Part shown: positions 9,451-26,148 of the stretch, one piece after another
How positions within the stretch are numbered: the first letter of the stretch is position 1
Layout of the letters: each line of letters starts with the position of its first letter
Source of the DNA: Methylomonas albis
GTDB taxonomy: Bacteria; Pseudomonadota; Gammaproteobacteria; Methylococcales; Methylomonadaceae
Reading direction: 5' to 3'
Length of the DNA stretch: 64,000 nt
NCBI RefSeq assembly: GCF_014850955.1
Contig: NZ_JACXSS010000001.1
Coordinates: forward strand, 2,356,001 to 2,420,000
Translations under genes and position numbers: made by a program
The notes under the pieces: model-generated
The model's database searches: none
Told to the model about the DNA's origin: nothing
What the model saw: the letters and a program-made list of their open reading frames with translations, nothing else

Positions 9451-9451
9451 A

Positions 9452-9518: not shown

Positions 9519-9605
9519 TGGTGCCTCAGACCGGAATCGAACCGGTACGACCTTTCGGTCGCGAGATTTTAAGTCTCGTGCGTCTACCTATTTCGCCACC
9601 GAGGC
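9519..9605 (-). tRNA. tRNA-Leu (anticodon TAA)
   Basis: The 87-base class II tRNA has acceptor strands GCCTCGG and CTGAGGC (one G-T pair) with encoded CCA, an anticodon stem CGAGA/TCTCG with loop CTTAAAA giving anticodon TAA, the long variable arm CGACC-GAAA-GGTCG typical of leucine tRNAs, and T-loop TTCGATT. It reads UUA and UUG codons. Confidence 0.95.
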
Positions 9606-9635
9606 CTTCTTACTGTTGAAGTGCGAAGCCCGCGA

Positions 9636-9663
9636 ATTTTATAGCATTGATTAAATTTGTCAA
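9636..9663 (-). promoter_or_regulatory. Promoter of tRNA-Leu
   Basis: On the minus strand a perfect -35 TTGACA (9658-9663) stands 16 bp before the -10 TAAAAT (9636-9641). A GC-rich discriminator (CGCGGGC) follows, as in stringently controlled stable RNA promoters. Confidence 0.75.
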
Positions 9664-9725
9664 TTGAAAAATGGCAGTTTAATGTCTGCGTAGCTGTTGG
9701 CGGCGGAAAAACAATTCACCAGGCA

Positions 9726-10907
9726 TTAAACGGCTTGTTTGATTCTAAGCAAGGCGTTTTCCAAGTTTGCCATGCTGGTGGCAATGGAGATTCTGATGTG
9801 GCCTGGGCAACCGAATGCAGAGCCGGGCACTAAGGCCACGCCGGCTTTTTCGATCAAATACTCGGCAAACTCCAGGTCGTCGTTGATGCCGTCCAGTTTG
9901 CTCAGCAGTTTTTCGACGTTAGGGAATACGTAGAAAGTGCCGTCGGTTGGCAAGCACTCGATGCCAGGTATGTTGTTCAGCTCGGCAACCACATAGTCGT
10001 GACGTTTTTTAAATTCCACCATCATCGTGTCGATGCAGCCTTGGTCGCCGTTCAACGCTTCTTCGGCCGCCATTTGGGAAATAGACGTTGGGTTGGAGGT
10101 GCTTTGAGATTGAATGATGCACATCGCGTCGATCAGGGGAGCAGGACCCGCCGCGTAACCGATACGCCAGCCGGTCATCGAATAGGCTTTGGATACGCCG
10201 TTCAGCACGATGGTGCGCTCGTAAAAATCCGGGTGGGCGTTGAGGATGTTGACGAAATCACCTTTGTTCCAAAGGATCAATTCGTACATGTCGTCGGTAG
10301 CGATCAGAACCTCGGGAAAATCTAATAATACATCGCCCAAGGCTTTAAGCTCTTCCAGGCTATAGGCTGCACCAGTCGGGTTGGACGGGCTGTTGATCAC
10401 TAACAAACGGGTTTTGGGGGTAATCGCTGCGCGCAATTGGGCCGGGGTAATTTTGAAGTTTTGCGCCTGACAGGTTTCGATAATCACTGGCACACCATCC
10501 GCCAGTAACACCATATCCGGGTAAGACACCCAGTAGGGGGCAGGGATGATGACTTCGTCGCCTGGATTGATCAGCGCTTGTGCTAAGTTGAAAAAGCTTT
10601 GTTTGCCGCCGCAGGACACCAGAATTTGCTTGGCTTGGTAATCCAGGCCGTTATCGCGTTTGAATTTGGCGATGATGGCTTTTTTCAAGCCGGCAGTCCC
10701 GTCAACCGCAGTATATTTGGTAAATCCGGAATTGATGGCTTTAATGGCGGCCGCTTTAATATGATCCGGCGTATCGAAATCAGGTTCGCCGGCGCCCAGG
10801 CCGATAATGTCTTTGCCGGCGGCACGCATCGCGGCGGCACGGGCAGTGATGGCCAGGGTAGGGGACGGTTTGACCGCTTTTACACGGTTAGACAGGGTGA
10901 TGCTCAT
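9726..10907 (-). CDS. aspC: Aspartate aminotransferase (class I, PLP)
   Basis: The 393-residue protein has the fold-type I features of bacterial Ib-type aspartate aminotransferases: SRVKAVKPSPT at the start, INSPSNPTG near 170, the PLP lysine in GVSKAYSMTGWRIGY near 237, and a C-terminal arginine in HIRIS that binds the substrate carboxylate. It interconverts aspartate and glutamate with their oxo acids in the cytosol. Some members also act on prephenate. It lies downstream of sbcB on the same strand with an 87-base gap. Confidence 0.88.
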   Translation of the reverse strand: MSITLSNRVKAVKPSPTLAITARAAAMRAAGKDIIGLGAGEPDFDTPDHIKAAAIKAINSGFTKYTAVDGTAGLKKAIIAKFKRDNGLDYQAKQILVSCGGKQSFFNLAQALINPGDEVIIPAPYWVSYPDMVLLADGVPVIIETCQAQNFKITPAQLRAAITPKTRLLVINSPSNPTGAAYSLEELKALGDVLLDFPEVLIATDDMYELILWNKGDFVNILNAHPDFYERTIVLNGVSKAYSMTGWRIGYAAGPAPLIDAMCIIQSQSTSNPTSISQMAAEEALNGDQGCIDTMMVEFKKRHDYVVAELNNIPGIECLPTDGTFYVFPNVEKLLSKLDGINDDLEFAEYLIEKAGVALVPGSAFGCPGHIRISIATSMANLENALLRIKQAV

Positions 10908-10994
10908 GATGCCTCGGTCGAAATTTACTCAAATGCTGTTTATTATACGGCATAACGCCAAAATCGCAGTATTCCCGAAACAAACTGCAAATCG

Positions 10995-12434
10995 TCAATC
11001 CGGAAATTGTAGACGCCGATCTGCTGCATAAGCAGCGAGTTCGTTCAATATTGCCAGATTCGCACCGGGCTCTTCCCGCATCTGCGTGATTTTGGCGGCA
11101 AACTGTTCCAGCGTTATCGCGCCACTTGCTGCTGTGCCGTTTAGTTTAGCTCGACAATATTGTTGCCAGCGTTGGGCGTCTTCCGGGGGCAGGGTATGTG
11201 GATAATTTCGGGCACGGTAGCGAAACAACATTTCCGGCAAACGGGCGTCGTCAAAATCGGCGTCAAACTTGGATAACTCAGTGGGTAGGGCTTGTCTGAT
11301 CCGGGCCATCACTGCTTTGTCACGGTTGCTGAAAAATCCGCCGCTGTAAATCATCAAATCAGGATCGCGAGGCGACTCTTGATATTGACGGGTAAATACC
11401 TCCGATAGTTTCTCCGCCAAGGGTGGCGCGGCCCGAATCAGCTGCAAATTTGCTCGGCATAAGCCTAAATCAAGCTGCAAACGTTCGGCGTCGGCCGGTC
11501 GTACCACAGACAACGGCGCCAACACTGGGGCTTTGTTGATATGCACGGTTTTTAAGGGGATTCTGGCAACCCCTTCCGGCAATTCGTCACTCGCAACAAA
11601 TAGCCGTTGCTGAATGTCTTCCGCGCTTAACTCGAGCAAGGGTGCGGGATCGACCAACAGGTCGTAAACGATGATCTCGTTACTATTGCTCGGGTGCGCT
11701 GCCAATGGCAGGATCACGGCTAAATGATTATTTCGAGAGGCGAACCGGCCGGAAATATGGATTAACGGGGTAAAACTGCCAAGTTGCAATAGCTTTAATG
11801 CGGCGCTTTTATGGCGGTAATTTTGTAAATAGTCGAATAGCTTCGGTTGACGTTGTTTGATTAATTTGGCCATTGCAATGGTTGCATACACGTCGGATAA
11901 GGCATCGTGTGCAGTTTCATGGGCGATGCCGTTAGCCTTGGTGAGCCCTTCCAATTTAAAACTGGCAACGCCCTCGGCATTCACCGGCCACTCAATACCC
12001 TCCGGCCGCAAGGCCTTGGCGGCGCGGACGACATCGATAATATCCCAGCGGGAATTACCGTTTTGCCATTCGCGCGCGTAAGGATCGTAAAAGTTGCGAT
12101 AGAGTAGATTGCGGGTGACTTCGTCGTCGAAGCGGATGCTGTTGTAACCCACGCCACAGGTGCCGGGTTCCGCGAGTCGCTGATTAATCATGCCGGCAAA
12201 CGCTGCCTCACAAACGCCTCTTTCAGCGGCCAATTGTGGGGTGATGCCGGTAATCAAACAGGCCTCTGGGTGTGGCAAGTAATCGTCGGCAGGCTGGCAG
12301 TAGGCCATCACGGGCTCACCGACGATATTGAAATCGGCATCGGTGCGGATACCTGCAAATTGACAAGGCCGGTCGCGTTGCGGATCGATGCCGAAGGTTT
12401 CGTAATCGTGCCAGAAAAAAGTCGCTGTAGTCAT
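10995..12434 (-). CDS. sbcB: Exodeoxyribonuclease I
   Basis: The 479-residue protein begins with the DEDD exonuclease motif WHDYETFG (residues 8-15), with later ExoII and ExoIII motifs (YNSIRFDDE near 98 and HDALSDVYAT near 180). The C-terminal SH3-like and helical regions of ExoI are present by length (E. coli ExoI is 475 residues). It degrades single-stranded DNA 3' to 5' in recombination and mismatch repair. It is divergent from the mxaD-like gene. Confidence 0.92.
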   Translation of the reverse strand: MTTATFFWHDYETFGIDPQRDRPCQFAGIRTDADFNIVGEPVMAYCQPADDYLPHPEACLITGITPQLAAERGVCEAAFAGMINQRLAEPGTCGVGYNSIRFDDEVTRNLLYRNFYDPYAREWQNGNSRWDIIDVVRAAKALRPEGIEWPVNAEGVASFKLEGLTKANGIAHETAHDALSDVYATIAMAKLIKQRQPKLFDYLQNYRHKSAALKLLQLGSFTPLIHISGRFASRNNHLAVILPLAAHPSNSNEIIVYDLLVDPAPLLELSAEDIQQRLFVASDELPEGVARIPLKTVHINKAPVLAPLSVVRPADAERLQLDLGLCRANLQLIRAAPPLAEKLSEVFTRQYQESPRDPDLMIYSGGFFSNRDKAVMARIRQALPTELSKFDADFDDARLPEMLFRYRARNYPHTLPPEDAQRWQQYCRAKLNGTAASGAITLEQFAAKITQMREEPGANLAILNELAAYAADRRLQFPD

Positions 12435-12561
12435 TAAATGTTCAAGGGCGGGCGGCTAGAGTCGGGAAAATTTCCGCAAACATGCTTTTGCGGATACTTG
12501 CGGAGAGATTTTATTTTATAATCGCCCCCTCCATTTTATGTGACCCTCATAGGAAAGTGTT

Positions 12562-13158
12562 ATGAAAAAAACCTCGTTACTCGTTTCAGCCGCATTGTTT
12601 TTGTTTACCAGCATGGCAAATGCTCATGGCCCGGTTAGAGCAAAATTGACCGCTACTATGACTATTGATGCGCCAGCGGCAAAAGTTTGGGATGTAATTA
12701 AAAATTACGACGATCTATCCTGGCTACCAGCCGTTAGAAGCGTAACAGGCGAAGGCACCAACAATAAAGGCGCGGTCCGCACGCTGCATCTGACCAATGG
12801 TGGCACTATCACGGAAGAATTGAAAGCCTATGACGCCGCGAAATTTTCTTATAAATACAAAATTACCGAGATGAGCTCTACCGGCACCATCAAACATGCC
12901 GGCCAAGACGAACATATTCCTGTATTGCCGGTTGGCAACTATGCGGCGGAAATATCCGTTACCGATAAAGGCGGCAAATCTGAAGTCGAATGGGTTGCCA
13001 CTTATTATCGTTCTTACGTAAATAACAATCCACCAGCGGAACTGAACGAAGAAGCAGCTGATAAAGCGGTTACAAATGTGTTGAAATCCGGACTGGAATC
13101 ACTTGCTAAAAAAGTAGGCGTTGGCGTTGCGACTGTTGATATCGACATCAAACGCTAA
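12562..13158 (+). CDS. mxaD: MxaD-like periplasmic SRPBCC protein
   Basis: The 198-residue product starts with a signal peptide (KKTSLLVSAALFLFTSMANA, cleavage after residue 22). The mature part is an SRPBCC/START-like domain: TIDAPAAKVWDVIKNYDDLSWLPAV, then NGGTITEELKAYD, VLPVGNYAAEISV, and YRSYVNNNPPAELNEEAADKAV. These resemble MxaD, which in methylotrophs is reported to help methanol dehydrogenase interact with cytochrome cL. AGGAA precedes the ATG, and a TATAAT box is at 12517. No mxaF or xoxF gene is in the window, so the symbol is by similarity only. Confidence 0.7.
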   Translation: MKKTSLLVSAALFLFTSMANAHGPVRAKLTATMTIDAPAAKVWDVIKNYDDLSWLPAVRSVTGEGTNNKGAVRTLHLTNGGTITEELKAYDAAKFSYKYKITEMSSTGTIKHAGQDEHIPVLPVGNYAAEISVTDKGGKSEVEWVATYYRSYVNNNPPAELNEEAADKAVTNVLKSGLESLAKKVGVGVATVDIDIKR

Positions 13159-13171
13159 AAAGCTGTCATCC

Positions 13172-13198
13172 GGTTCTCGGCATTCAACTCCGAGAACC
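13172..13198 (+). terminator. Hairpin between mxaD-like and propeller genes
   Basis: GGTTCTCGG and CCGAGAACC form a perfect 9-bp stem with a 9-base loop. There is no T-tract, so it may stabilise the upstream message or attenuate rather than fully terminate. Confidence 0.5.
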
Positions 13199-13229
13199 CT
13201 CTCGCCGCAATCCCCTACGTATCCTCACT

Positions 13230-14183
13230 ATGTACATCAGATATTCGTTTTTGGCTTTGACGCTGCTAAGTGCTTTAGAGTCCAGCGCTAGCGCCGATCC
13301 TCGCGCCTTCATCACTAATCAACTGGACAATTCGGTGTCGGTCATCGATACCCAAAGCCAGCAAGTCATAGAGACGATTAAAGTGGAGGGTAAACCCGCT
13401 GGCGTTGCGCTAAATCAACCGAAGAAACAGGTGTACATTAGCACGCCGGAAGGCGGCGGTTTTGCGGTTTTGGACGGCGAGAAACTAACTAAATTAACCA
13501 AGGTTAAGGTCGGCGGTGCTTCGCTTGGGATCACTGCAGACCGAAAAGGCGAGCAGGTGTTTGTCGCCGATTGGTATGAAAACTCTGTGACGGTTTTCGA
13601 TACCAAAAATTTTGCCAAAATTAAGACCATTACAGTTGGTAAATCGCCATCCGGCATGACGGTCAGTCCGGACAATCGCTGGCTATATGTCGCCAATCGC
13701 ATCGACGATACCATTTCGCAAATTGATTTGAGTAAACTGACTATCCGCAACACTACCAAGGTGGGTGCGCATCCGTTTGGGATAGCGGTGGACAGTCAAG
13801 GTAAACATCTGTATTCCGCTAACGTCGAAAGCGACAATGTGACAGTTTTGGACGCCCGTAGCTTGAAACGTTTGGCGACCATAAAGGTTGGCGCCCGGCC
13901 TTATGCGGTTTCGCTGGCATTGAACGACAGTCTATTATTCGTCACGAATCAGGACGATAGCACTGTCTCGGTAGTCGATACCGCTACATTCAAACAGATT
14001 GAGGTAATCGCAGTGGGCGATAAGCCGGAAGGTATCAGCACTCATCCCGACGATCAAAAAGTATATGTTGCTAACTGGTTTGACAACAATGTGTCTGTCA
14101 TCGACGCTAAAACGTTGAAAGTGGTGAACACCATTAAAACAGGGGAGGGCAGCCGCGCCTTTGGCGAGTTCATCGCGCGCTAG
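13230..14183 (+). CDS. Secreted YVTN/YncE-type beta-propeller protein
   Basis: The 317-residue protein has a signal peptide (about 22 residues, ending SSASA) and about seven repeats of the type GxxPxGxxxxPDxxxxYVxNxxDxxVSVIDxxxxK, for example NQLDNSVSVIDTQSQ and NWFDNNVSVIDAKTL. Such propellers act in the periplasm as binding or scaffold proteins; no catalytic residues are recognisable. It follows the MxaD-like gene by 71 bases on the same strand, so a link to the periplasmic methanol oxidation system is possible but inferred. Confidence 0.85.
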   Translation: MYIRYSFLALTLLSALESSASADPRAFITNQLDNSVSVIDTQSQQVIETIKVEGKPAGVALNQPKKQVYISTPEGGGFAVLDGEKLTKLTKVKVGGASLGITADRKGEQVFVADWYENSVTVFDTKNFAKIKTITVGKSPSGMTVSPDNRWLYVANRIDDTISQIDLSKLTIRNTTKVGAHPFGIAVDSQGKHLYSANVESDNVTVLDARSLKRLATIKVGARPYAVSLALNDSLLFVTNQDDSTVSVVDTATFKQIEVIAVGDKPEGISTHPDDQKVYVANWFDNNVSVIDAKTLKVVNTIKTGEGSRAFGEFIAR

Positions 14184-14589: not shown

Positions 14590-14809
14590 AGTCCACCCAT
14601 TCGTAAATCTCGGTCAAGGTTTGATCGCACTTGCAACAACTGGTGCCGCAAGACGAAGCAACCGGGCTTAGCCGTACTTTACCTTTGTTGATCCATTTTC
14701 CCAGCATGCCGCGTAAGGCATCGGCATCCATTTGAAAATGCAGCACTAGATCGCTCAAGGTTACCCGGTGTTTTTCCTGCAAATAACTGCGCAAGTCGGA
14801 CAATATCAT
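14588..14809 (-). CDS. feoC: FeoC-like winged-helix protein with cysteine cluster
   Basis: The 73-residue protein MILSDLRSYLQEKHRVTLSDL has the winged-helix start of FeoC and a C-terminal cysteine group SSCGTSCCKCDQT (four cysteines), which in relatives binds an iron-sulfur cluster. It probably controls FeoB stability or activity. The ATG at 14809 overlaps the feoB stop by four bases, so this start is preferred to the upstream reading inside feoB. Confidence 0.85.
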   Translation of the reverse strand: MILSDLRSYLQEKHRVTLSDLVLHFQMDADALRGMLGKWINKGKVRLSPVASSCGTSCCKCDQTLTEIYEWVD

Positions 14810-17121
14810 TGAGTGACTCCGTTTGTTTGGCGCACCCCGTAAAAACGCAATACGGACAGAATGCCGACAAATATAAGGATTAGCGCCAATATCCAGCCGA
14901 TTGCCGAATTGGGGTGCTGCGCATAGGTCATGCCTTGGTAGAAGAGGGTGGCAGTCAGGTAGGCGACAAAAGTGGTCCAACACACCACGAATAAAGCCCA
15001 GGCGCCGTTGGTTTCTTTGTAGATCGCCGCAGTGGCAGCTATACAGGGCGCATACAACAAAATAAACAACAAATAGGCAAAAGCGCCAATCTGGCCGTCA
15101 AAATGCGCTTGCATGACGCCGAAGGTATCGAGCTTGACTTGCTGTTGTTCGGCTGCCGCAGCCTGATCGGATACATTGGCTATGCCTAATCCCAATGGAT
15201 CGAGAAGCTTGTCGGCGATTGCCATTAAGTTGTCCGGTACAGTTTGGCAGGCTTCCAGCAGCGCTTCTTGCAAATCGAAGCTTTTCTCTTCTGCTATGTG
15301 ATCCGAGACAGCCATTTGGCTATACAAGGCATCCAAAGTGCCGACTACGGCCTCTTTAGCTAACACGCCGGTAAAAATGCCGACAGTTGCAGGCCAGTTA
15401 TCATGAGCGATGCCCATGGGCTGGAAAACCGGCGTCAATGCGCGGCCGATTTCGCTTAGTACCGACTTATCGCTATTTTCCTGGCCGAAACTGCCGTCTG
15501 TGCCCAAAGAGTTCAACACATTCAATACCAGCACCATCGGCACAATGACTTTGCCGGCGTTGAAGATGAAGGTTTTTAAGCGCTCCCAGGTTTTGGTGTA
15601 CACACCTTGCAAAGTGGGTAAATGGTAAGCGGGCAGTTCCATCAGAAAAGGCGTAGGGGAGCCGCGCAATAAAGTGTGACGCATGATTAAACCGGTCAAC
15701 ACCGCCACCACGATGCCGAATATATACAAGCCAAACACCAGGTTCTGCCCGCCGACCGGGAAAAACGCGGCGGCAAACAAGGCGTAAACCGGCAGACGGG
15801 CGCCGCACGACATGAAGGGATTCATCAAATTGGTTAATACCCGATCACGCTGATTATCCAAGGTGCGGGTGGCGATAATGGCCGGCACATTGCAGCCAAA
15901 ACCAACGATCATGGGAACAAACGATTTGCCGGGCAGACCAATGATGCACATGAACCTATCCATCACAAATGCGGCTCTGGACATATAGCCCGAATCTTCC
16001 AGCATCGATAAAAATATGAACAAAAAGCCGACGATGGGTATAAAGGTAGACACCACTTGAATGCCGCCGCCGATCCCGCTGCTGGTCAAAACCACCAGCC
16101 AGTCCGGCCAACTCATCGCTGTCAGCAATTCACTTAAGCCATCCACTAGCAAGGCGCCGACCGCTTTGTCAAAAAAGTCGACGAAAGCGCTGCCAATATT
16201 AATGGTAAACATGAACATTGCATACATCACCAACAAAAATATGGGGATGCCCAAGAAGCGGTTTAGAACGATGCTGTCGATTTTGTCGGTAGTGTTACGG
16301 GATACTTCGTTAAGTTTGCAGACGCTGGCTTTTACTAGTTGGTTAACCAAACCATAGCGGGCGTCCGCGGCGAGAATATCGATTTCGTCTTGGGTTTGCG
16401 CTTCGATGTCTGCACGCAGTTGTTCTGCAACTTGCTGTAGTTCGGGGCCGGCAAGCTGTTTGGCCAAGGTATCGTTTTCCAGCAAACGTAGGGCAAGCCA
16501 GCGACTATCGCAAATCAATTCTAAGGATTGTTGGGAAAGCTGCGGTTGCAATTGGCTGACAGCAGCTTCAATGACCGAATGGTAGTCGACTTGTAATGCG
16601 GGAATAGGCTTGCTGATGCAAGCTTTATTGATTTCGTCTCGTAATTCCTTGATACCAGTACCAGCAGCGGCTGTAACCGGAACTACCGGACAAGCCATTT
16701 GTGTGGCGAGCAACTCGATGTCAATTTTGACGCCGCGTTTTTTAACTGCATCCATCATGTTCAACACCAATATCATCGGCACGCGCATTTCTATCAATTG
16801 CGAGGTCAGGTAAAGATTGCGTTCTATATTGGAAGCATCGACGATATTGATGATCAAATCGGCTTGGCGAGAGGCCACGTAATCGCGGGCTACTTTTTCG
16901 TCCAGAGAAATGCTGTCGTCATCGGCTTCTAAGGAATATGTGCCGGGCAAGTCGACGAGACTTATCTGTTTGCCTTGATGGGTGTATTCGCCGGTTTTTT
17001 GTTCAACAGTAACGCCAGGCCAATTGCCGACATGTTGCTTGGAGCCGGTCAATGCATTGAACAGCGTGGTTTTTCCGCAATTGGGGTTACCGACAACGCC
17101 GACGGTAAAGTCCATACTCAT
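14806..17121 (-). CDS. feoB: Ferrous iron transport protein B
   Basis: The 771-residue protein has an N-terminal GTPase domain with G1 GNPNCGKTT (residues 11-19), G3 DLPGTYSL near 57 and G4 NMMD near 120, a helical linker (about 170-270), and a polytopic membrane domain with two Gate repeats including the cysteine-containing GFGCNVPAI. It imports Fe(II) across the inner membrane. It overlaps feoA and feoC by four bases each, giving an feoABC operon. Confidence 0.96.
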   Translation of the reverse strand: MSMDFTVGVVGNPNCGKTTLFNALTGSKQHVGNWPGVTVEQKTGEYTHQGKQISLVDLPGTYSLEADDDSISLDEKVARDYVASRQADLIINIVDASNIERNLYLTSQLIEMRVPMILVLNMMDAVKKRGVKIDIELLATQMACPVVPVTAAAGTGIKELRDEINKACISKPIPALQVDYHSVIEAAVSQLQPQLSQQSLELICDSRWLALRLLENDTLAKQLAGPELQQVAEQLRADIEAQTQDEIDILAADARYGLVNQLVKASVCKLNEVSRNTTDKIDSIVLNRFLGIPIFLLVMYAMFMFTINIGSAFVDFFDKAVGALLVDGLSELLTAMSWPDWLVVLTSSGIGGGIQVVSTFIPIVGFLFIFLSMLEDSGYMSRAAFVMDRFMCIIGLPGKSFVPMIVGFGCNVPAIIATRTLDNQRDRVLTNLMNPFMSCGARLPVYALFAAAFFPVGGQNLVFGLYIFGIVVAVLTGLIMRHTLLRGSPTPFLMELPAYHLPTLQGVYTKTWERLKTFIFNAGKVIVPMVLVLNVLNSLGTDGSFGQENSDKSVLSEIGRALTPVFQPMGIAHDNWPATVGIFTGVLAKEAVVGTLDALYSQMAVSDHIAEEKSFDLQEALLEACQTVPDNLMAIADKLLDPLGLGIANVSDQAAAAEQQQVKLDTFGVMQAHFDGQIGAFAYLLFILLYAPCIAATAAIYKETNGAWALFVVCWTTFVAYLTATLFYQGMTYAQHPNSAIGWILALILIFVGILSVLRFYGVRQTNGVTQ

Positions 17122-17351
17122 ACTTTTTCTATGAGTAAGACCGACGCCTCGTTTTTACGTAGCGACAAAGAAAATCCGCGAATTTTGATTTCAACAGGAT
17201 CGCCCATGGGTGCAAAACGAGTAATTGTGAATTCAGTACCTGGCGTTAACCCCATAGCCAGCAGCTTCTTCCGATAGACGCCACCTGATTGATCGAACCC
17301 CACTATACGGCCTGTATCGCCAGTCGCCAGCGTTTTGAGATATGTCGACAT
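17118..17351 (-). CDS. feoA: Ferrous iron transport protein A
   Basis: The 77-residue SH3-like protein reads LATGDTGRIVGFDQ, LLAMGLTPGTEFTITRFAPMGDPVEIKIRGFSLSLR, as in FeoA. It is the first gene of the operon; a Fur-like box begins 11 bases upstream of the ATG at 17351. Confidence 0.93.
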   Translation of the reverse strand: MSTYLKTLATGDTGRIVGFDQSGGVYRKKLLAMGLTPGTEFTITRFAPMGDPVEIKIRGFSLSLRKNEASVLLIEKV

Positions 17352-17476: not shown

Positions 17477-17504
17477 ACTTCGCATAATGTATATTATGTT
17501 AAAT
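17477..17504. other. dif: XerCD recombination site dif (chromosome dimer resolution)
   Basis: The site reads ACTTCGCATAA (XerC arm, 17477-17487), TGTATA (central, 17488-17493) and TTATGTTAAAT (XerD arm, 17494-17504). Compared with the E. coli dif I remember, the central region and XerD arm are identical and the XerC arm matches at 8 of 11. It lies in a gene-free gap between feoA and a small ORF. This places the replication terminus in the window. Confidence 0.9.
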
Positions 17505-17624
17505 AATGTACTACTAACGATAATTCTGGCCAATGCGCCGTCGCTCGTTTAAGTGAATTTGTTAATAGTCGACGGACTGGTGCGGCGTAAAAGCAGCCAG
17601 ACCAATTTCGATTACCCCAGCGCT

Positions 17625-17789
17625 ATGGCGCATCGCTACAGCCTTTACCTGATTCTGGGGACGCTGTATCTGTTGCTGGTCAGTTTGACCCTGCCGTTTC
17701 CGATTCCACCACAAACTGTCCCTGTAAGCATTTTTGTCGTGGTCTACGCCGTCAACGTGTTGCTGGCTAATACGCAAAAGCGGGTATGA
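17625..17789 (+). CDS. Possible small membrane protein
   Basis: From ATG 17625 a 54-residue product has a hydrophobic stretch (YLILGTLYLLLVSLTLPF) and a second one (PVSIFVVVYAVNVLLA) with a basic end TQKRV. No ribosome site is clear, and a longer reading starts at GTG 17553. It lies next to dif. I recognise no family and the gene may not be real. Confidence 0.35.
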   Translation: MAHRYSLYLILGTLYLLLVSLTLPFPIPPQTVPVSIFVVVYAVNVLLANTQKRV

Positions 17790-17896
17790 ATTGTCTTTAC
17801 AGCAAATGGATCAAAAACTCGGCATCCCAATGTAATTTGAATACCCTCTCCATCCAGCGCCAACCATTGATAACTAAAGTCCAAGGCACGCCCCTG

Positions 17897-19045
17897 TTAG
17901 GCGCGAGCGCAACTTAAGGAGCCGGCGCAATGAACCGCCCGCAACACCAGTATTTTCCCGAACGTCTGCAAGCCCACCACCTCCCGAAGTTCCAGCCCGC
18001 TTTGATCGAACAGCCGCCGCCATTCGGCCAGCGTCCGTTCCCGGCCGCGAGTGTTGACGAACATCTGCATATCGAACGCGGCCGTGGCCATGTCGGCTCG
18101 TTTGTCCGGCATCACCAACTCCATCACGGCGATGGCTGCGCCGCTAGTTGCACAGGCTTGTGCGACATTGCGCAGCACGGCAACGCAGGTGTCGTCGTCG
18201 AAGCCATGCAGCACCGCACTCAGCAGGTAAATGTCCTTGCCGCTGCGCGCCTTGGGCACGGCTTGCAGCAGGTCGCAAGCTTCGAAACTCATGCCTTGCA
18301 GCGCGGCGCCCTCGCCTTTTTCCTTCCAGAACTGCGCCGCGCCGCGAATAACCTGTTCGCGGTCGGCCACCAGCGCCTTGAGGCGCGTATGGCGTTTGAG
18401 GATGGCGAGGGACTTTGCACCCTTGGATCCGCCGATGTCGATGATACGCTCGAAGCGTGACCAATCGAAATCGGTAACAAAGCTGCCCCCGGCCAAGGCT
18501 TCCACGCTATCCATCGCCTGCGCAAACAGCTGGTCGAATTCCGGGTTAGCATCCAGGTAATCGTAAAACGCCTGCCCGTGAGCAGATTCGAACGGCACGC
18601 CGCCGCTGCACACTCCCTGCTCCAATCGTTCGAACCACGGCCGGCTCATTTCCGGCGAATTGTGCATCAGCACCATCGCCCGAACGCTGTGGGGATGATC
18701 CGGGCGCAGGCAGGACGAAAGCTTATTGTTGCGGAAGCGACGTTGCGAGACCTCCTCGAACACGCCCATCGCCACCAGCATGCGCAGCAAGCGGTAGAGC
18801 GCATCGGCATCAGCGGCGACGCGCTCGGCCAGGGTTTCGGCGCTCAATTCGCCGTCAGCCAGCGCGCCGGCGATGTCCAGCCGCGCGACGACATTCAGCG
18901 CCCGCGATTGCCAGAAGGCCGAACCGATCTGAATCAGACGGAACGGCGGCGGCACGATTTTGTTGGGCAGGTTTTGCAGCCAGGCGCCGAATCTGGCGAA
19001 CTTGGCGAAACGGCGCACCGCGCCGGCATTCTTTTGCAATGTCAT
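17897..19045 (-). CDS. SAM-dependent O-methyltransferase (family 2 type)
   Basis: The 382-residue protein has an N-terminal winged-helix dimerisation region (VVARLDIAGALADGELSAE, about 55-110) and a Rossmann methyltransferase domain with IIDIGGSKGAKSLAIL near 215 and SAVLHGFDDDTCVAVLRN near 290. This is the layout of acetylserotonin/hydroxyindole-type O-methyltransferases acting on small aromatic or secondary metabolites. The ATG at 19045 has GGGAG in front. It starts one base after the stop of the broken TetR gene, so the two were cotranscribed. The region is GC-richer than the surroundings. Confidence 0.8.
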   Translation of the reverse strand: MTLQKNAGAVRRFAKFARFGAWLQNLPNKIVPPPFRLIQIGSAFWQSRALNVVARLDIAGALADGELSAETLAERVAADADALYRLLRMLVAMGVFEEVSQRRFRNNKLSSCLRPDHPHSVRAMVLMHNSPEMSRPWFERLEQGVCSGGVPFESAHGQAFYDYLDANPEFDQLFAQAMDSVEALAGGSFVTDFDWSRFERIIDIGGSKGAKSLAILKRHTRLKALVADREQVIRGAAQFWKEKGEGAALQGMSFEACDLLQAVPKARSGKDIYLLSAVLHGFDDDTCVAVLRNVAQACATSGAAIAVMELVMPDKRADMATAAFDMQMFVNTRGRERTLAEWRRLFDQSGLELREVVGLQTFGKILVLRAVHCAGSLSCARA

Positions 19046-19046
19046 G

Positions 19047-19657
19047 TCACACTCCCGCTTGCGCCGCAGCCATGCCAGCCGCCAATAGTTTGCCATTCAG
19101 CGTAGCGAGTTCGTTGATGAAGGCTTCGTCCATCTGTCCGCCCATCTGTTCCTCGAAAATGTCTTTCAGCAGCATCGGCATCATGGCCAGGCTGACGAAG
19201 GCCATGCGCGCCACGTCGGGGTTGATCGCCCGATCGACCTGGCCGCTGGCCTTCAGCTGTTCCAAGCGCCGCGCACCGCCGCTACGGCCACGCTCCAGCA
19301 ATTGCAGGATGAAACGCCGGCCCGGCCCGTGGTTGAGGGCCAGCACCTTGAGAATGAGCTTGGGAAATTCGGGATGCTTGCGCATGGTGTCGTAATACAG
19401 CCGCAGATAGTCGGCGAAACCGCCGACCTCGGACAGCGTATCGCTGTCGAGCATGTCCAGGAGGGCTTGAGCGTCTCGCGGATCATTTCTTCGTAAAGGC
19501 CTTCCTTGTTGCCGAAGTAATAGCGGATCATCGAGATATTGACGCCCGCCTGGTCGGCGATGGCGCGGGTGGTAACCTTGTGGTATTCATCGGAAAGGAA
19601 ACAGTCCGGCGCCGCCTTGAGCAGACGCGCGTAAACCGGGTCGCTAATATCGTTCAT
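19047..19657 (-). pseudogene. TetR-family regulator, frameshifted
   Basis: From ATG 19657 (AGGAG upstream) the frame gives a TetR DNA-binding domain, YHKVTTRAIADQAGVNISMIRYYFGNKEGLYEEMI, then leaves frame after IRETL near 19470. The ligand-binding part continues in another frame (DMLDSDTLSEVGGFADYLRLYY to AAAQAGV, stop at 19047). Total length is one base short of a multiple of three, consistent with a single-base deletion. A sequencing error is possible. It would have controlled the methyltransferase downstream. Confidence 0.8.
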
Positions 19658-19770
19658 CGTAAAAACTCCTGCAAGCCATGATGGCGGCAGGTTAGCACCG
19701 GCGGCACAACCGCCCTAGCAGATTTGCCAATCAAGATGCGGGGTTTGATTGAACGGCAAGCCGTTCGAAG

Positions 19771-20385
19771 TCAGCGCAGCAAGCGCACCTCAAGCAACAT
19801 ACAGCCCACGGCAAAGGTGAAAATTCCAACAGTAGACACATACACCGAAATCATCGGCCCCAGCGCATAAACCACGGCGCCGACGAAGATCAATGCCGCG
19901 GCCGGCTTGGGATAGAGCGCCGAACGGTAGATAGCCAGGCAAAACAGCACAATGCCGATTAATATCGTCGCGGAAGCCGAGATTCTAAACGCCAACACCG
20001 CCGGATCGTTTTTGATGATGGCGTCGCGCAACAGAAAGGCGGTTTCGGGATAGCGGGCGATGACGGGATAAAGAAACAGCTCCCAAGTCACCTTGCAGGC
20101 CTGTAACAAATAAGCCGCCTCGACGAACAAAAAACCGACGGCGCCCTGCACGCCGGCCGTGTCACGCATCTTGGCATAAACGGCATAGAATCCGACCAGC
20201 AACGCTAACACGCCGGCGAAGGCTACCAGCGCTAAAGGCACCCAAGCTGAATTGCGTACCACTTCGACATAGTCGAAGCTTCCCCTCCCTAAGGGTAACA
20301 AGATCGGGAACAGGACCGCATAAGCGCTGAGCAATAGCGATCCCACGATGATGGCGATGCCGCCGAGTTTTTCGAAAATGTGCAT
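19771..20385 (-). CDS. Polytopic membrane protein of unknown function
   Basis: The 204-residue product has about six hydrophobic segments (for example GGIAIIVGSLLLSAYAVLF, VPLALVAFAGVLALLVGFYAVY, ATILIGIVLFCLAIY and AAALIFVGAVVYALGP). The ATG at 20385 has GGGAGG at good spacing; an ATG two codons earlier abuts the ribosome site, and the longer reading is not supported. It lies 113 bases upstream of the TetR gene on the same strand and may share its transcript. I do not recognise the family. Confidence 0.65.
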   Translation of the reverse strand: MHIFEKLGGIAIIVGSLLLSAYAVLFPILLPLGRGSFDYVEVVRNSAWVPLALVAFAGVLALLVGFYAVYAKMRDTAGVQGAVGFLFVEAAYLLQACKVTWELFLYPVIARYPETAFLLRDAIIKNDPAVLAFRISASATILIGIVLFCLAIYRSALYPKPAAALIFVGAVVYALGPMISVYVSTVGIFTFAVGCMLLEVRLLR

Positions 20386-20462
20386 GTTCATCCTCCCTGT
20401 TTCGATTGATGGCCGGCCACCGATTCCGGTCTGACCACGGCAATGAAGATTCGGACATGGCC

Positions 20463-20540
20463 GTAGGCTGGGTAGAGCGAAAGCGAAACCCAGCACAAAT
20501 ACCATCAATGCTGGGTTTCATTGCATTCAACCCAGCTTAC
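20463..20540. repeat. Imperfect palindromic intergenic repeat (MITE-like)
   Basis: GTAGGCTGGGT and AAACCCAGCA on the left mirror TGCTGGGTTT and ACCCAGCTTAC on the right, forming a roughly 78-base hairpin with an AAACCCAGCA/TGCTGGGTTT inner stem. Elements with GTAGGCTGGGT ends are common intergenic repeats in proteobacteria; no transposase is present. Confidence 0.6.
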
Positions 20541-20842
20541 GATCCTCAAAAGACCAAGATGAATATAATCGCCATATCGGTTATATTCATTGGAATCCGG
20601 CAAAATATGGGCATGTTCAAAATATAATCGATTTACCCACAGGGCATAAAGGCCTTATTCAAGCTTCCACCGGTATGTGAAGCAAGGTATTTATGAAAGA
20701 AGTTGGGACATAATGAAAATAACGAGATTGATGGTATTTGGTGACGCGACCGATACACCTCCTAACGTCGGCACATCCTAATTTGTGCGCACCTTATCGC
20801 GTTATAGATTAACCAAGGCTAGCGCATCGTATCGAGATAAGA
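20541..20842. other. Gene-less spacer with a 30-bp operator-like palindrome
   Basis: TGAATATAATCG (20560-20571), spacer CCATAT and CGGTTATATTCA (20578-20589) form a 12-bp inverted repeat with one mismatch, and a further half site AATATAATCG occurs near 20620. It looks like a repressor operator, but no intact gene follows on the plus strand. The rest of the spacer shows nothing clear. Confidence 0.4.
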
Positions 20843-21052
20843 TTACCCCTCTTTTTTTATTTTTAATGCGCGCCACCCCTTAGGTTTTTTTTCTAAAGTA
20901 AAGCTAACCTGATCCCCCGTGGCTAATATCTTGTCGTCAGCTTCTATTTCTTGATAGAAAAAAAACACATCCTGACCTTTCTGCCTTTGTATAAATCCAA
21001 AGCCTTTAAAAATATCAAATGTTTTCACAACCCCAAAGTGCCGTTCTTCCAT
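20843..21052 (-). CDS. Cold-shock-domain protein, retron partner
   Basis: The 69-residue protein is a single CSD: RNP1-like KGFGFIQR and RNP2-like DVFFFYQEI, with GVVKTFDIF at the start and GDQVSFTLEKKPKGWRALKIKK at the end. CspA-type domains bind single-stranded RNA or DNA. It starts two bases after the reverse transcriptase stop, so the genes are coupled, and shares the low GC content of the retron. Binding to msDNA or its RNA is an inference from context. Confidence 0.85.
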   Translation of the reverse strand: MEERHFGVVKTFDIFKGFGFIQRQKGQDVFFFYQEIEADDKILATGDQVSFTLEKKPKGWRALKIKKEG

Positions 21053-21054
21053 TT

Positions 21055-22233
21055 TTATTCCCAGATTTCTTTTTTAGTTTGTTTGTTACCGTAAACTTTG
21101 TTCAATTGAAGCCGAAGAGAGTTAGCTAATGACTTGTTATTTCGACCTAAAATACCCAATCTATAATATAACGAGTTTACGCGCTTTATGTTTCCAATCC
21201 TTTGGTTTTGTGGGGCGGTTACTTTAACCAATTTTTTAGTTTCTTGTATCAGTTGTTTTTGCATTGGTTCGTCATAAACAGGCAATACTAAACTGAGTCT
21301 TTCGCGAAGTTTTTTTGCTTGCACGTGTTGTAACCGTTGTAATTTTGCAACTTTACCTGACACTTCATTCCAGCGTTCATGATATTTCTCAGAACAACGA
21401 TTAACCTTGTATTCGCGCTCACACATAAATACAAGTTGCCGAATAAACCTACGCTCCTCTTTTCGAGATTTAGGTTTTTTATGTCCTATCCAAAGACCTG
21501 TGACTTCAAAACTCGCTTCAGGGTTCGCTCTATGTTCAATTCTCGTTTTACGGCCGTTAATTTTAAGCTCGTATTTTTTAAAAAGTGCTGCAATTTTCTT
21601 AATATAAAAAGTCTCTTGTTCTTTTGTAAGAGTTGTTTGAGTTGATAAAGTAATGTCGTCTAAAAGACGAGAATATTGGATGTTATGTTTTTGAAGCTCT
21701 GAAACCAGCAAGTACTCAGTGTCATAAAATAATAAATTTGCAATGTATGATGACGTACATGCGCCTTGTGGGACTCTATTGTGGAGTGTAACAATTTTTG
21801 TAAGTAACTCGGCTATATGAGCTGGGAATTTAAAGAAGTGCTGAAATATTTTCGACACATATTCAGACTTAATGTTTGGGTAGAATTGCTTAATATCAAT
21901 GCAGATAATTTGATTGGCATGTGAGTGGCGTAAAGCATTTGCAACATAATCACGCGGATTATTTTCGTCTTTGATTCCACCCTGCAAATACTCAGGATAT
22001 TCCACCTTTTCGAATATTCTGGAGTTTATGCGTTTTTGTAGCTTTTTAAGCTCGTACTTAGGCTCATGAACTAATCTTTCTTTGCCATTTTTTTGTGGTG
22101 TCAAAAAGCTAGTGTATGAGTTATCAATCTTATTTGATAAATCTAGTAAAAGTTTAGGGTGAATTCCTAAAGTAATCGCCAATGCCTCAACTGAGGCAAT
22201 GGGATTGTTAGGATAGTGAGGGGCAAGCTTCAT
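21055..22233 (-). CDS. Retron reverse transcriptase
   Basis: The 392-residue protein has the group II-derived RT fold with retron-specific marks: NALRH at 99-103 (the NAxxH region X motif), DIKQFYPNI at 113-121 (first catalytic Asp), VPQGACTSSYIANL at 154-167 (domain 4), SRLLDDITLS at 188-197 (catalytic Asp pair 192/193), and VTG at 244-246 (region Y). The usual tyrosine of YxDD is replaced by leucine. It would reverse-transcribe the structured RNA encoded upstream into msDNA. ATG 22233 has a poor ribosome site, so coupling to the upstream small gene (32 bases away) is likely. Low GC suggests transfer. Confidence 0.92.
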   Translation of the reverse strand: MKLAPHYPNNPIASVEALAITLGIHPKLLLDLSNKIDNSYTSFLTPQKNGKERLVHEPKYELKKLQKRINSRIFEKVEYPEYLQGGIKDENNPRDYVANALRHSHANQIICIDIKQFYPNIKSEYVSKIFQHFFKFPAHIAELLTKIVTLHNRVPQGACTSSYIANLLFYDTEYLLVSELQKHNIQYSRLLDDITLSTQTTLTKEQETFYIKKIAALFKKYELKINGRKTRIEHRANPEASFEVTGLWIGHKKPKSRKEERRFIRQLVFMCEREYKVNRCSEKYHERWNEVSGKVAKLQRLQHVQAKKLRERLSLVLPVYDEPMQKQLIQETKKLVKVTAPQNQRIGNIKRVNSLYYRLGILGRNNKSLANSLRLQLNKVYGNKQTKKEIWE

Positions 22234-22265
22234 AGAAAGGGAAGCAATGAATTAAGAGTCAGTTG

Positions 22266-22466
22266 TTAGTTCATAAACTTATCATAAACGAAATCAATAA
22301 GCTTAAATATTAAACCAACAACCAAGGGCAAATATGCTCTAAAACGAGTCAATTTACTACCTTGATCCGTATCAACTTGTTTTTCAGTTCGCATAGCGTG
22401 GAACTGTTGCAAACTGTTGCTCTTGATTTCTGGAACTACTACGACGATATAAATATCAGTTTTCAT
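22266..22466 (-). CDS. Small membrane peptide between retron RNA and RT
   Basis: AAGGAG stands five bases before ATG 22466, a strong ribosome site, so this 66-residue ORF is real. It begins KTDIYIVVVVPEIKS, has a polar middle, and ends with one hydrophobic segment LPLVVGLIFKLIDFVYDKF (about 46-64). No family is recognised. In retron defence operons the extra gene is usually the toxic effector, and small membrane proteins are known in that role; here that is inference. Confidence 0.7.
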   Translation of the reverse strand: MKTDIYIVVVVPEIKSNSLQQFHAMRTEKQVDTDQGSKLTRFRAYLPLVVGLIFKLIDFVYDKFMN

Positions 22467-22536
22467 TTTGTCTCCTTAAAGGATATTGAGTTTGTGGCTC
22501 AAGCCGAAGCCGCCACGCCAGACCAATAACTAAGGA

Positions 22537-22693
22537 AACGAGAATATAAGAATTGATAAATGGACGACTCTTAACCTTTACGCCAGACAACGGTCGTCCA
22601 TATACGCACAGATACAAATCATGCGCGTGGACATATCCCCGCAGCCCGGTCATGAACCCGAAGGTTCGCCTCGAAAGGCACCACTTTCTCGTT
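22537..22693 (-). ncRNA. Retron msr-msd RNA (predicted by structure)
   Basis: In transcript order: AACGAGAA (22693-22686, a1); hairpin GCCU-UUCG-AGGC (22679-22668); abutting hairpin GAACC-UUCG-GGUUC (22667-22654); hairpin ACGCGCA/UGUGCGU (22628-22604); a 9-bp stem AUGGACGAC/GUCGUCCAU with a 24-base loop (22601-22560), the msd candidate; and UUCUCGUU (22544-22537, a2) complementary to a1. This order a1-msr-msd-a2 ahead of an RT is the retron layout. The usual AGC next to a1 with the branching G is not obvious, and the a1/a2 pairing is short (8 bp). Confidence 0.75.
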
Positions 22694-22755
22694 GGGTAAA
22701 CAAACGTAGTAATTTTAAAGAGCAAAACAAACGGGCGACTAACACCCGCATATAT

Positions 22756-22784
22756 ATTCTGCCGAATCTTTATAACGATGTCAA
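22756..22784 (-). promoter_or_regulatory. Promoter of the retron operon
   Basis: Perfect -35 TTGACA (22779-22784) and -10 CAGAAT (22756-22761) are separated by 17 bp on the minus strand. Transcription would start near 22749, about 55 bases before a1. Confidence 0.65.
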
Positions 22785-22800
22785 ATGACCATGGCTACTA

Positions 22801-23338
22801 GGGCCAAGGATGCGGTAAACAACGTGCACCGCATCGTTCGCGATTGGTGCGGTTCGTGATCTCACCACACCCTACGCCCGCTATTGGCAGGCCAGCGGCC
22901 ATAGGCACTTCTTTCGGCTTTCGAAATAAGGTATAGGGACTAGATTTAGCGACTAATACTTGTCCCGATAAATATCTTTTCGATGTCCTAATTCGACGAC
23001 CAAAACGATTAATTCGTCGTCTTGAATCTGACAAATCAAACGGTAGTCGCCGACCCGATAGCGCCAGGGCCGTAGGATGTGCTGAACAGCGTGAAGCGCA
23101 TCGTTCGCGATTGGTGCGGTCGTAAACTCACCACACCCTACGACCACTATTGTTAGGCCATCTGCCATAGGCACTTTTTTCGGCTTTCGAAATAAGATAG
23201 TGGGGCTAGATTTAGCGATTAATGCTTGTCCCGATAAATGTCTTTTCGATGCCCCAATTCGACAACCAAAACGATTAATTCGTCGTCTTGAATCTGGCAA
23301 ATCAAGCGGTAGTCGCCGACCCGATAGCGCCAGTAGGC
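22801..23338. repeat. Tandem direct duplication of about 268 bp
   Basis: Units 22801-23068 and 23069-23338 align along their length with scattered differences. Each consists of an intergenic repeat (GATTGGTGCGGT and CACCACACCCTAC), a spacer (TTTCGGCTTTCGAAATAAG) and the 3' end of a relE-type gene. The right unit carries the end of the intact relE; the left is a decayed copy. Confidence 0.8.
22953..23069 (-). pseudogene. Duplicated relE 3' fragment
   Basis: The minus strand reads [18 protein letters not shown] and [15 protein letters not shown] then a stop, nearly identical to the last 37 residues of the intact toxin at 23219-23491. It has no N-terminus or start and arose from the tandem duplication. 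Confidence 0.8.
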
Positions 23339-23491
23339 GGATAATTTACCTTGCAAGGCTTTGCCCGCAATGCGCGGATTGTCTTGCTCGGCTAACTGAT
23401 CGAGAAAGGCTTTGATTCTGTCGCGGACCGGTTTGTCCAGCTTGTTGATAGCTTTGGCGGCGCCCGTCTTAAGCCTAATGCTCCAAGGCAT
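23219..23491 (-). CDS. relE: RelE-type mRNA interferase toxin
   Basis: The 90-residue product shows the RelE pattern: [56 protein letters not shown] and [15 protein letters not shown], with the basic and aromatic residues (R, Y) of the active-site surface near the C-terminus. RelE cleaves mRNA in the ribosomal A site. It overlaps the antitoxin gene by 17 bases. It is complete, unlike its downstream copy. Confidence 0.88.
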
Positions 23492-23702
23492 TGAGTTGCT
23501 GCTCCCATTCCGCCAAGCTGATCGTATCGTCCTTGCCGCAGGTCAATTCCGCTAACGCGATATCGGCGGCGGCAGCATCGGCCAAGTCTTCGAGGTAATC
23601 ACTGAGTAGATTTTTGATCAGTTGCGCGGGGCTAACGTGTTCCTGCTCGGACAACTGTCGGAGCAAGTTCGCCGTGTCGTCGTCGATATTGAGTGTCATC
23701 AT
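23475..23702 (-). CDS. relB: RelB/DUF6290-type antitoxin
   Basis: The 75-residue protein starts MTLNIDDDTANLLRQLSEQEHVSPAQLIKNLLSDYLEDL, an RHH-like N-terminal domain, followed by a charged C-terminal tail that would wrap the toxin. GAGG lies upstream of two tandem ATG codons; either may be used. It precedes relE as in canonical RelBE operons. Confidence 0.8.
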   Translation of the reverse strand: MMTLNIDDDTANLLRQLSEQEHVSPAQLIKNLLSDYLEDLADAAAADIALAELTCGKDDTISLAEWEQQLNALEH

Positions 23703-23756
23703 GCTGCTGCCTCTATTTTGGTTTTACGATTAGTCTCGTTGTATAACGCCGAGGGC

Positions 23757-23850
23757 CGTCGGATGTGCTGAACAGCGTGCACCGCACTTGTGCCCTTTAG
23801 GGTATCGTTCGCGATTGGTGCGGTTCGTAAACTCACCATACCCTACACCT
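23757..23850. repeat. Third copy of the GTAGG-type intergenic repeat
   Basis: GATGTGCTGAACAGCGTG followed later by CGTTCGCGATTGGTGCGG and ACTCACCATACCCTAC repeats the element at 22801-22875 and 23069-23142, here with about 20 extra bases inside. The ends are partly inverted (GTAGG or GTCGG versus CCTAC). Confidence 0.65.
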
Positions 23851-23934
23851 GCTTTTGGCTGGATATTTGCCATATTTCGTCTGACGAATTTTGGCCGGTT
23901 TTGAGCCTGCCGCTACGGCTCTATTCATCCAAGC

Positions 23935-24237
23935 TCACACAGACTCCAACTCTATTTTTACCTTTTTACCGAGCGCGGCGGCGGCGCTGACTAAGGTGGT
24001 CAAGGTTAAACTGGTGTCTTCTTCGTCCAGCAAGCGATTAAGCGAAGCCCTGCTGGTGTGCATTTTTTTGGCCATTGCCGTTTTACTGAGTTTTAGAGCC
24101 GACATGCCTTCCGATATTTGCCAAGCGATGACCCGCTTGGCCGCTACCGCTGTCACTTCATCAAGGATGGCTTCCTCGCTCAGGAAATCGTCGAAGCTGC
24201 TACCGATATGAGGGTTTTCTTCGCGCTGACTATTCAT
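23935..24237 (-). CDS. higA: HigA-type XRE antitoxin
   Basis: The 100-residue protein has a helix-turn-helix KLSKTAMAKKMHTSRASLNRLLDEEDTSLTLTTLVSAAAALGK (about 50-92), as in HigA proteins. It overlaps the toxin gene end by four bases. The order toxin-antitoxin is the normal one for HigBA. It appears intact although its toxin partner carries a stop. Confidence 0.85.
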   Translation of the reverse strand: MNSQREENPHIGSSFDDFLSEEAILDEVTAVAAKRVIAWQISEGMSALKLSKTAMAKKMHTSRASLNRLLDEEDTSLTLTTLVSAAAALGKKVKIELESV

Positions 24238-24578
24238 TGCTTACCTCGTAATGTTTTCAATCTTTGTTTTGCCAAGTCGATTTCCGCTTTCGGTGTTTTC
24301 TGACTTTTCTTGATAAAACCATGCAGCAAAATCATCGTCTGTTTATCGATGACAAACAGAACGCGGGCTATCCGGTTGTCCAGCTTAATTCTGACTTCCC
24401 AAATGTCGCCGTCAAGATGATCGACTAACGGCATACCGAGAGGCCAGCCGAATTGCACCGTTTTAATATCTTCGCCTATCGTTTTTCTGTCTTGAGCGGA
24501 TAAGCCTTTCAATCATTCTCTAACGGGCTCGCTGCCGGCATCCGTTGCAAAAAATCTAACAGAAAGGATTGGATTCAT
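24234..24578 (-). pseudogene. higB: HigB/Gp49-like toxin with an internal stop
   Basis: From ATG 24578 one frame reads MNPILSVRFFATDAGSEPVRE, then TGA (24513-24515), then LKGLSAQDRKTIGEDIKTVQ and IWEVRIKLDNRIARVLFVI to FIKKSQKTPKAEIDLAKQR. Gp49-like toxins have tryptophan at this point (PVREWL), so TGG became TGA. Translation could restart at the TTG directly after, giving a toxin lacking about 22 residues. The C-terminal core with the catalytic lysines (KKSQKTPK) is otherwise intact. Confidence 0.85.
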
Positions 24579-24708
24579 CGATGTAGCGTATCAAAATTGG
24601 TACTTAACAACAAGATTGACTGTCCGAAGCATCCAATAGCCGTTATCGCGGTTGACCGTATGCCGGCGACTGTTCGGCATTTTCAAACGCCATGGCGACA
24701 AGGCCTTA

Positions 24709-25110
24709 TCACTCCTGCCTATCCGCCGGATGATTGACGCCATCCCCGGTTCGCACTTCGCCCAGTTCAAAGGGATTAACACCTTCAAGGCATGCAACGT
24801 TGTAGCCGTACAGGCTAGGCACGGAACGGCGCTGGTGGTGGGTATAGATGCCGCAAATCGAACAAAAATAATGTTTGGCGCTCATGGTGTTGAATTGGTA
24901 AAGCTTCAAGACCTCTTGGCCTTTGACGACCTTTATTCCCGATAGCGGCACCGACGCCATAATCGCGCCCTTGCGCCGGCATAGCGAACAATCGCAGCGA
25001 CGCGGATCGACGATGCCGTCGGGAAGATCGAGTTCGAGTTCCACCGCACCGCAATGGCAGGTGGCGCGGTGTTTGGCGTTGATGAGGGTGTTGCCTACTT
25101 TTTTGATCAT
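24709..25110 (-). CDS. GFA/CENP-V family zinc protein
   Basis: The 133-residue protein has the GFA cysteine pattern: CHCGAVELEL, CDCSLCRRKGA and FCSICGIYTHHQRR, which bind two zinc ions. The family was named after a glutathione-dependent formaldehyde-activating enzyme, but most members have unknown substrates. ATG 25110 is chosen; the longer frame begins at TTG 25155. In a methylotroph a link with formaldehyde is tempting but unsupported. Confidence 0.82.
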   Translation of the reverse strand: MIKKVGNTLINAKHRATCHCGAVELELDLPDGIVDPRRCDCSLCRRKGAIMASVPLSGIKVVKGQEVLKLYQFNTMSAKHYFCSICGIYTHHQRRSVPSLYGYNVACLEGVNPFELGEVRTGDGVNHPADRQE

Positions 25111-25272
25111 ATCGTGTTGCCAATTGTTTTTTTGGATAAGGCCGTAAGGCGTCAATAGGCGTAGCCGTATTGCGCCGCCTGTTGGTCATTAACGTTTCGG
25201 CGCATTCCGCTAAAGTTAATGCGCCCTGCGCGGCTGAGTTTTACCATGAATCAACTATTCGACCGCTTTCGT

Positions 25273-26148
25273 TTACACCAAAGGCAGATATACATCCGTA
25301 ATCTGTTCGTGCTCGGCCGTTTCAGGCACCCGTTTGATGTAATGAAAAAATACCGGAAATTCCCGCAACTCCTCACCGCTTTCCGGCAACCACTCCCGGT
25401 AAAGGTAATAAACACTGTCGCTAATCCGGTCGGTCGAACCGATATGGCGCACCACGGCGCAACGTCCTCCCGGAATCAATTTGTTAATCACGCCTTGCGA
25501 GTTTTCCGGCACGGGTTGCTTGACCTCGCCGCATACATCGAATCGGAATGATTCTGCGGGCGTGACAGCCGGGTCATCATAGGGGATACCAATCGTGCGG
25601 CTGCTGGCGATCGGCGACAAGCCGCTCTGTTTGCGCCAGTCTATAAAGCTTCTGACCGACGCCATTATCAGGCTGGGCGGGCCACGGTGCTCCAAGACGG
25701 CTATTGTGGTCTCTGCAAAATCGACGATGGTGACGTTCATCTGGGGACTCCTTATGCGTTTGGGTAATAGCATGCGCTCGTTCCAAGGCTGCCATGCTGG
25801 GTGCTTTCGAAATTGAGTAGGCGTTTGTCCGAAGCACTTTTTGAATGCGCGGGAGAACGATTCCGCATTTAAGAAACCGGCGTCCAAGCCAATATCGGTA
25901 ATGCTGCGCCGCTCTTGAAACACCAGTTGGTAAGACGCCTTGCGTAAACGCAATAACTGGATGTAGCGCGTTGTGCTCAACCCGGTGTAAGCGGAGAACT
26001 GCCGTTGAAAATGAAAGCGCGAAAAACTGGCCTGTTTACTCAGTTCATTGACCGACACCGGCTCGAACAGATGTTTGTCTATGTAATCGAAAATCCTATC
26101 GAAGCGCATGGCATAGGCCGCGCTGGCCGTTTTATCGTCCACTTTCAT
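25273..26148 (-). CDS. AraC-family regulator with GyrI-like effector domain
   Basis: The 291-residue protein has an N-terminal double helix-turn-helix (FDYIDKHLFEPVSVNELSKQASFSRFHFQRQF and ITDIGLDAGFLNAESFSRAFKKCFGQTPTQFR, residues 18-112) and a C-terminal GyrI-like ligand-binding domain (from about 135). Such proteins resemble Rob/SbmC fusions and bind small hydrophobic molecules. Its targets are not evident; it is divergent from nothing and transcribed with its neighbours on the minus strand. Confidence 0.88.
   Translation of the reverse strand: MKVDDKTASAAYAMRFDRIFDYIDKHLFEPVSVNELSKQASFSRFHFQRQFSAYTGLSTTRYIQLLRLRKASYQLVFQERRSITDIGLDAGFLNAESFSRAFKKCFGQTPTQFRKHPAWQPWNERMLLPKRIRSPQMNVTIVDFAETTIAVLEHRGPPSLIMASVRSFIDWRKQSGLSPIASSRTIGIPYDDPAVTPAESFRFDVCGEVKQPVPENSQGVINKLIPGGRCAVVRHIGSTDRISDSVYYLYREWLPESGEELREFPVFFHYIKRVPETAEHEQITDVYLPLV

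Follow-up and report, generated by a model that had tools for sequence, protein, structure and literature searches.

The window, by which we mean the whole stretch of 64,000 nucleotides of Methylomonas albis DNA analysed here, carries at positions 17477..17504 (+ strand; C1:2,373,477) a 28 bp site with the 11-6-11 layout of dif, recognised by alignment to the dif sequence of E. coli. Two predicted arms, assigned by alignment to known dif, flank a central hexamer (17488..17493, +) that is identical to that of E. coli (6/6): a XerC-binding arm (17477..17487, +), with 8/11 bases in common, and a XerD-binding arm (17494..17504, +), with 11/11. All of the 3/28 bases that differ therefore lie within the XerC arm, and the alignment agrees with the initial annotation, which had read the centre and the XerD arm as those of E. 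coli and the XerC arm as 8 of 11. The layout, the centre, the XerD arm and the location in a terminus with converging KOPS are shared with E. coli dif, from which the window site differs at 3/11 XerC-arm bases and in having feoAB as its neighbour. The site lies in non-coding DNA, and none of the listed ORFs (45 aa and longer) overlaps it. On its left are feoA (17118..17351, − strand; PF04023), 125 bp from dif, and feoB (14806..17121, − strand; PF02421, PF07670 and PF07664). On its right, 48 bp away, lies a 78-aa ORF (17553-17789, + strand) whose only match is to the end of DUF4400, narrowly above threshold (27.6 bits; cut-off 27); this ORF may be the remains of an integrative element.

A search with the dif pattern, allowing up to 3 mismatches, found this one match in the window and none in any of 100 dinucleotide shuffles. 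The same search of the whole genome (C1, 5,360,835 bases, and C2, 34,598 bases; 5.395 Mb) returned the window site as the only match, with 0 matches to a reversed control pattern, and so the genome holds no other dif within this limit. It is practically inconceivable that the 28-mer arose by chance and has no function, since no shuffle produced a match (0/100), the exact 28-mer recurs in 119 or more other stretches of genome sequence and its position coincides with the switch in GC skew described below. The runner-up in the 204 kb surrounding dif reached 18/28 once the site's own reverse reading had been set aside, and a single other XerD half site (11/12) was found there, about 85 kb to the left. 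Two further candidates were discarded: a dif-like site on C2, for which the best match was only 18/28, and a resemblance of the XerC half of dif to a recombination site of phage P1 (26/34), from which no function is inferred.

We examined the position of the site relative to the strand biases of the chromosome. Over the 204 kb, cumulative GC skew has its maximum at position 17086 of the window, 391 bp from dif. Chromosome-wide skew was sampled in 35 pieces covering about 684 kb of 5.36 Mb (the window, split in four, and 31 further pieces of 20 kb each); it was positive in 15/15 pieces from C1:1 to 2,372,000, negative in 19/19 from C1:2,372,001 to 5,275,000 and positive in the one piece at C1:5,335,001. 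These pieces bracket the switch at the origin end to 5.275-5.335 Mb, about 70-130 kb past dnaA (C1:5,205,358-5,206,653), and the location of dnaA gives replication arms of about 2.83 and 2.53 Mb. For KOPS, we used GGGNAGGG, the motif named for V. cholerae in PMC5357621. Within the window, all six octamers to the left of dif are forward (+ strand; starts 1848, 10538, 10856, 11187, 11283 and 14142; 1848..14149) and all four to its right are reverse (− strand; starts 39842, 39847, 44466 and 50593; 39842..50600), so that every one of them points toward dif. In sets that overlap with this one and with each other, 18/20 KOPS in the 204 kb are directed at dif, the two of wrong polarity lying 59 and 65 kb to its left, and 38/44 have the expected polarity in the 34 pieces sampled as far as C1:5,275,000. 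Before dif these pieces contain 19 forward KOPS against 2 reverse, and after it 4 forward against 19 reverse. Over the whole genome the motif occurs 169 times in the forward and 184 times in the reverse orientation.

The skew sign change and the KOPS polarity switch are both located at dif, and the earlier proposal that the window spans the replication terminus is thereby borne out, the inversion of skew being not far from dif but within 391 bp of it. With a single site within 3 mismatches genome-wide, placed at this inversion, its designation as a chromosomal dif also stands, and the site is almost certainly the dif at which dimers of the main chromosome are resolved. Its position fixes where this chromosome terminates replication and, with it, the reading of the strand biases around the terminus. 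In PMC3025954, closeness of dif to the skew shift is described as general; the dif listed for Methylococcus capsulatus Bath, also a methanotroph, lies 39,100 bp from the skew maximum according to PMC2731167, compared to 391 bp in the window. The Methylococcus capsulatus Bath site has the same centre and XerD arm as the window dif, and differs from it in the outer bases of the XerC arm (PMC2731167). The host itself is a probable methanotroph, with two genome matches above cut-off to PF02461 (ammonia/methane monooxygenase family), of which there were none in 14 control genomes; the window site provides a well-supported dif for this probable methanotroph genus. The first 20 kb of C2 give short matches to plasmids of Methylomonas (3 records) and Methylotuvimicrobium (1 record).

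The genome encodes the proteins expected to act at such a site. One frame each exceeds the NCBIfam cut-offs for XerC (TIGR02224; L005) and XerD (TIGR02225; L004), and FtsK_gamma has one match above cut-off, in a frame of 775 aa. An FtsK frame of 526 aa covers profile positions 851-1353 of 1355 and scores 722 bits, below the full-length NCBIfam cut-off of 1566. If the known pathway applies here, FtsK would track along the converging KOPS to the terminus and activate XerD on the right arm of dif, after which XerC would resolve the Holliday junction and turn the dimer into two monomers at division. By analogy with that pathway, we infer that dimers would be resolved at the window dif by XerCD and FtsK.

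The site was then compared with those of other genomes. Among the matches listed for the exact 28-mer, titles that name a group are mostly gamma- or betaproteobacterial, apart from two MAGs with alphaproteobacterial titles (L046 and L083). In the latter, which bears the title Rhizobium sp., the flank of dif is nearly identical to that of Thiobacillus thioparus (L092), and this near-identity suggests that the Rhizobium-titled contig was wrongly binned. A site with up to 3 mismatches is present in 51/61 genomes, the host's own included, and in 44/51 of the more complete ones; of the 10/61 with no site within 3 mismatches, 3 are less than 90% complete and 7 are not. In three relatives (L211, L212 and L215), the sole site within this limit has the centre TCAATA instead of TGTATA. 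Matches to the XerC arm only, opposite in orientation to dif, were seen in L213 (20/28) and L221 (22/28). Of 20 stretches from relatives, 18 surround a canonical or near-canonical dif; the other two (L208 and L209) have a site with a changed centre and contain no KOPS. Across the 20, 71/72 KOPS converge on the site, although KOPS in homologous genes are not independent. Skew within 10 kb was positive on the left and negative on the right in just 8/20 of these stretches.

In three sister genomes (G013, G032 and G034), a second dif-like site was found 9.2, 7.6 and 7.8 kb, respectively, from the full dif. These partner sites are in direct orientation on the XerC side of dif, with the XerC arm intact and the XerD arm degenerate; their 15-base pattern had 0 matches in 620 kb of control DNA, which was taken from the host's own genome and not from the sister genomes. 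All three elements (L216 10001-19265, L225 10001-17664 and L210 2216-10028) carry a Zot/pI-type morphogenesis gene and a Phage_CRI/G2P-type replication gene between the two sites (3/3), as filamentous prophages seated in dif, and no integrase was found among the 14 ORFs scanned across them. We infer that these prophages were integrated by the host XerCD. From the geometry of the paired sites, the phage attachment site should consist of the dif XerC arm and centre with a poor XerD arm. The attP of TLCphi is alike in this respect: its XerC arm and centre resemble those of dif, and its XerD arm is degenerate (PMC4246890). TLCphi is presented there as a satellite without morphogenesis genes, unlike the sister-genome elements, which carry a Zot/pI-type gene together with a replication gene (PMC4246890). 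The dif-seated prophages broaden a known class of Xer-using elements by further hosts and a type of attachment site. In G014 (L208) and G034 (L209), a second dif-like site with a different centre was rejected as a further case: the 10 ORFs scanned there included no phage gene and belonged to ordinary families and to toxin and Fic families.

The initial annotation had also described the site as a target for dif-using mobile elements, which holds for the three sister genomes; the window dif itself is empty. We considered whether the window site could itself be an attachment site left behind by a Xer-using mobile element (IMEX) instead of the host dif. Attachment sites of this kind do exist in the sister genomes, a 40-base query is fully or partly matched in 182 plasmid and 20 phage records, and the ORF with the weak DUF4400 fragment begins close by on the right. 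However, an attachment site of this origin is contradicted by the uniqueness of dif in the genome, and the canonical centre, the position at the skew and KOPS switch and the neighbouring feoAB, present in most same-genus loci (13/19), also argue against it, as does the location of the single Zot-family match of the genome at C1:3,649,238, far from dif. An origin of the site in a mobile element is hence very improbable, and we retain the reading as the host dif. No second dif-like site in direct orientation borders the window dif, either genome-wide within 3 mismatches or in the 204 kb, and a search of the 204 kb for an IMEX remnant at this site found none, the best other match being 18/28.

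We looked at the genes on either side of dif in the relatives. Across the 19 same-genus loci (L188-L206), which have flanks of up to 1.5 kb, 13 carry feoA at about 1.5 kb or less from dif, in one of them truncated by the locus edge. A search of the 20 relative stretches with 29 window proteins (E-value limit 1e-10), covering up to 10 kb on each side of dif, found FeoA and FeoB in 10/20, and the genes behind them (YNCE, cyclase, sbcB and aminotransferase) in part of those. On the other side of the window dif, the 16.7 kb up to a radical-SAM gene that starts at 34202 form a slot (17505..34201) without KOPS, and none of the 14 slot genes queried was found beside dif in the 20 stretches, again up to 10 kb on each side; the lone slot-gene match was an alpha/beta-hydrolase (38%) in L208. 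The radical-SAM gene is found 84 bp past the far end of the dif-seated prophage in G013 (L216) and about 6.5 kb from dif in G033 (L211). In 7/10 stretches the feoAB genes are on the XerC side of dif; in the other three (G013, G027 and G014) they are on its XerD side, and there too KOPS converge on dif in its given orientation, apart from 1 in G013. In the relatives compared, the variable side of dif is the side away from feoAB.

The gene content of the window was scanned with Pfam in 60 proteins, with 4347-6167 and several short ORFs left out. Many of the matches are housekeeping (feoAB, ccm, aromatic amino acid genes, DNA gyrase A, cytidylate kinase and an S1-domain protein), and no transposase or integrase was found among these 60 proteins. 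A reverse transcriptase gene (20843-22233, − strand; PADLOC RT_V, E 4.8e-159) lies 3.3 kb from dif and is one of four RVT_1 matches in the genome. It adjoins a cold-shock-domain gene, a kind of partner that type V retrons have, and from their sequences the two genes are a probable type V retron. Also in the slot is a ParE-type toxin gene with an antitoxin-like ORF and a partial tandem toxin copy (22953-24512, − strand), and the window holds 3 of the genome's 13 ParE matches. A putative second toxin/HTH pair was recognised by eye in this same region. To the left of feoB, a 579-aa ORF in low-GC DNA (6168-7907, + strand) matches, at 6168-7904, part of the PADLOC PDC-S49 profile (E 1e-19) and no Pfam family, and is a candidate defence gene. 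The many mobile and defence genes that had been attributed to the surroundings of dif were therefore too strong a description, as many of the matches are housekeeping and no transposase or integrase is among the proteins scanned; what remains of it is the probable type V retron, the ParE-type toxin genes and the one candidate defence gene.

The window dif is a real but ordinary example of a well-known site, and the sister-genome prophages and the variable slot are the fresher points. Tentatively, and with a little less than an even chance of being right, we propose that dif in this genus forms one border of a variable slot that lies between feoAB and the radical-SAM/ccm cluster, which filamentous phages may enter via TLCphi-type sites, though with a morphogenesis gene of their own, and that the accessory genes at 17.5-34.2 kb of the window, the retron and toxin genes among them, may fill the same slot. 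A clustering of integrases at the terminus was also considered and dropped: of the 21 Phage_integrase matches in the genome, 0 lie inside the window, the nearest being about 57 and 64 kb from dif. On C1 (n = 18), none occurs before 2.3 Mb save for the XerC and XerD genes, the other 16 lying at 2.31-5.33 Mb.

Lastly, we examined the bases that flank the 28-mer, using 107 of the at least 119 exact-match loci after similar ones had been dropped, the only correction made for relatedness. The flanks are A/T-biased with a weak pattern, approximately W-A-W-R-T-A-T at +1 to +7 on the right and A-T-n-T-A-T-A at −7 to −1 on the left. Positions on the right carry 0.10-0.48 bits of information and those on the left 0.06-0.31, where the control averaged 0.028 and did not exceed 0.19, and the consensus is stronger on the XerD side among the matches listed. 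Variability outside the 28-mer is given as high in PMC2731167. In 48 loci from relatives, some of them counted twice, the right flank scores a mean of 4.0/7 against 2.5 for the window at large, and the right flank of the window dif scores 6 of 7.
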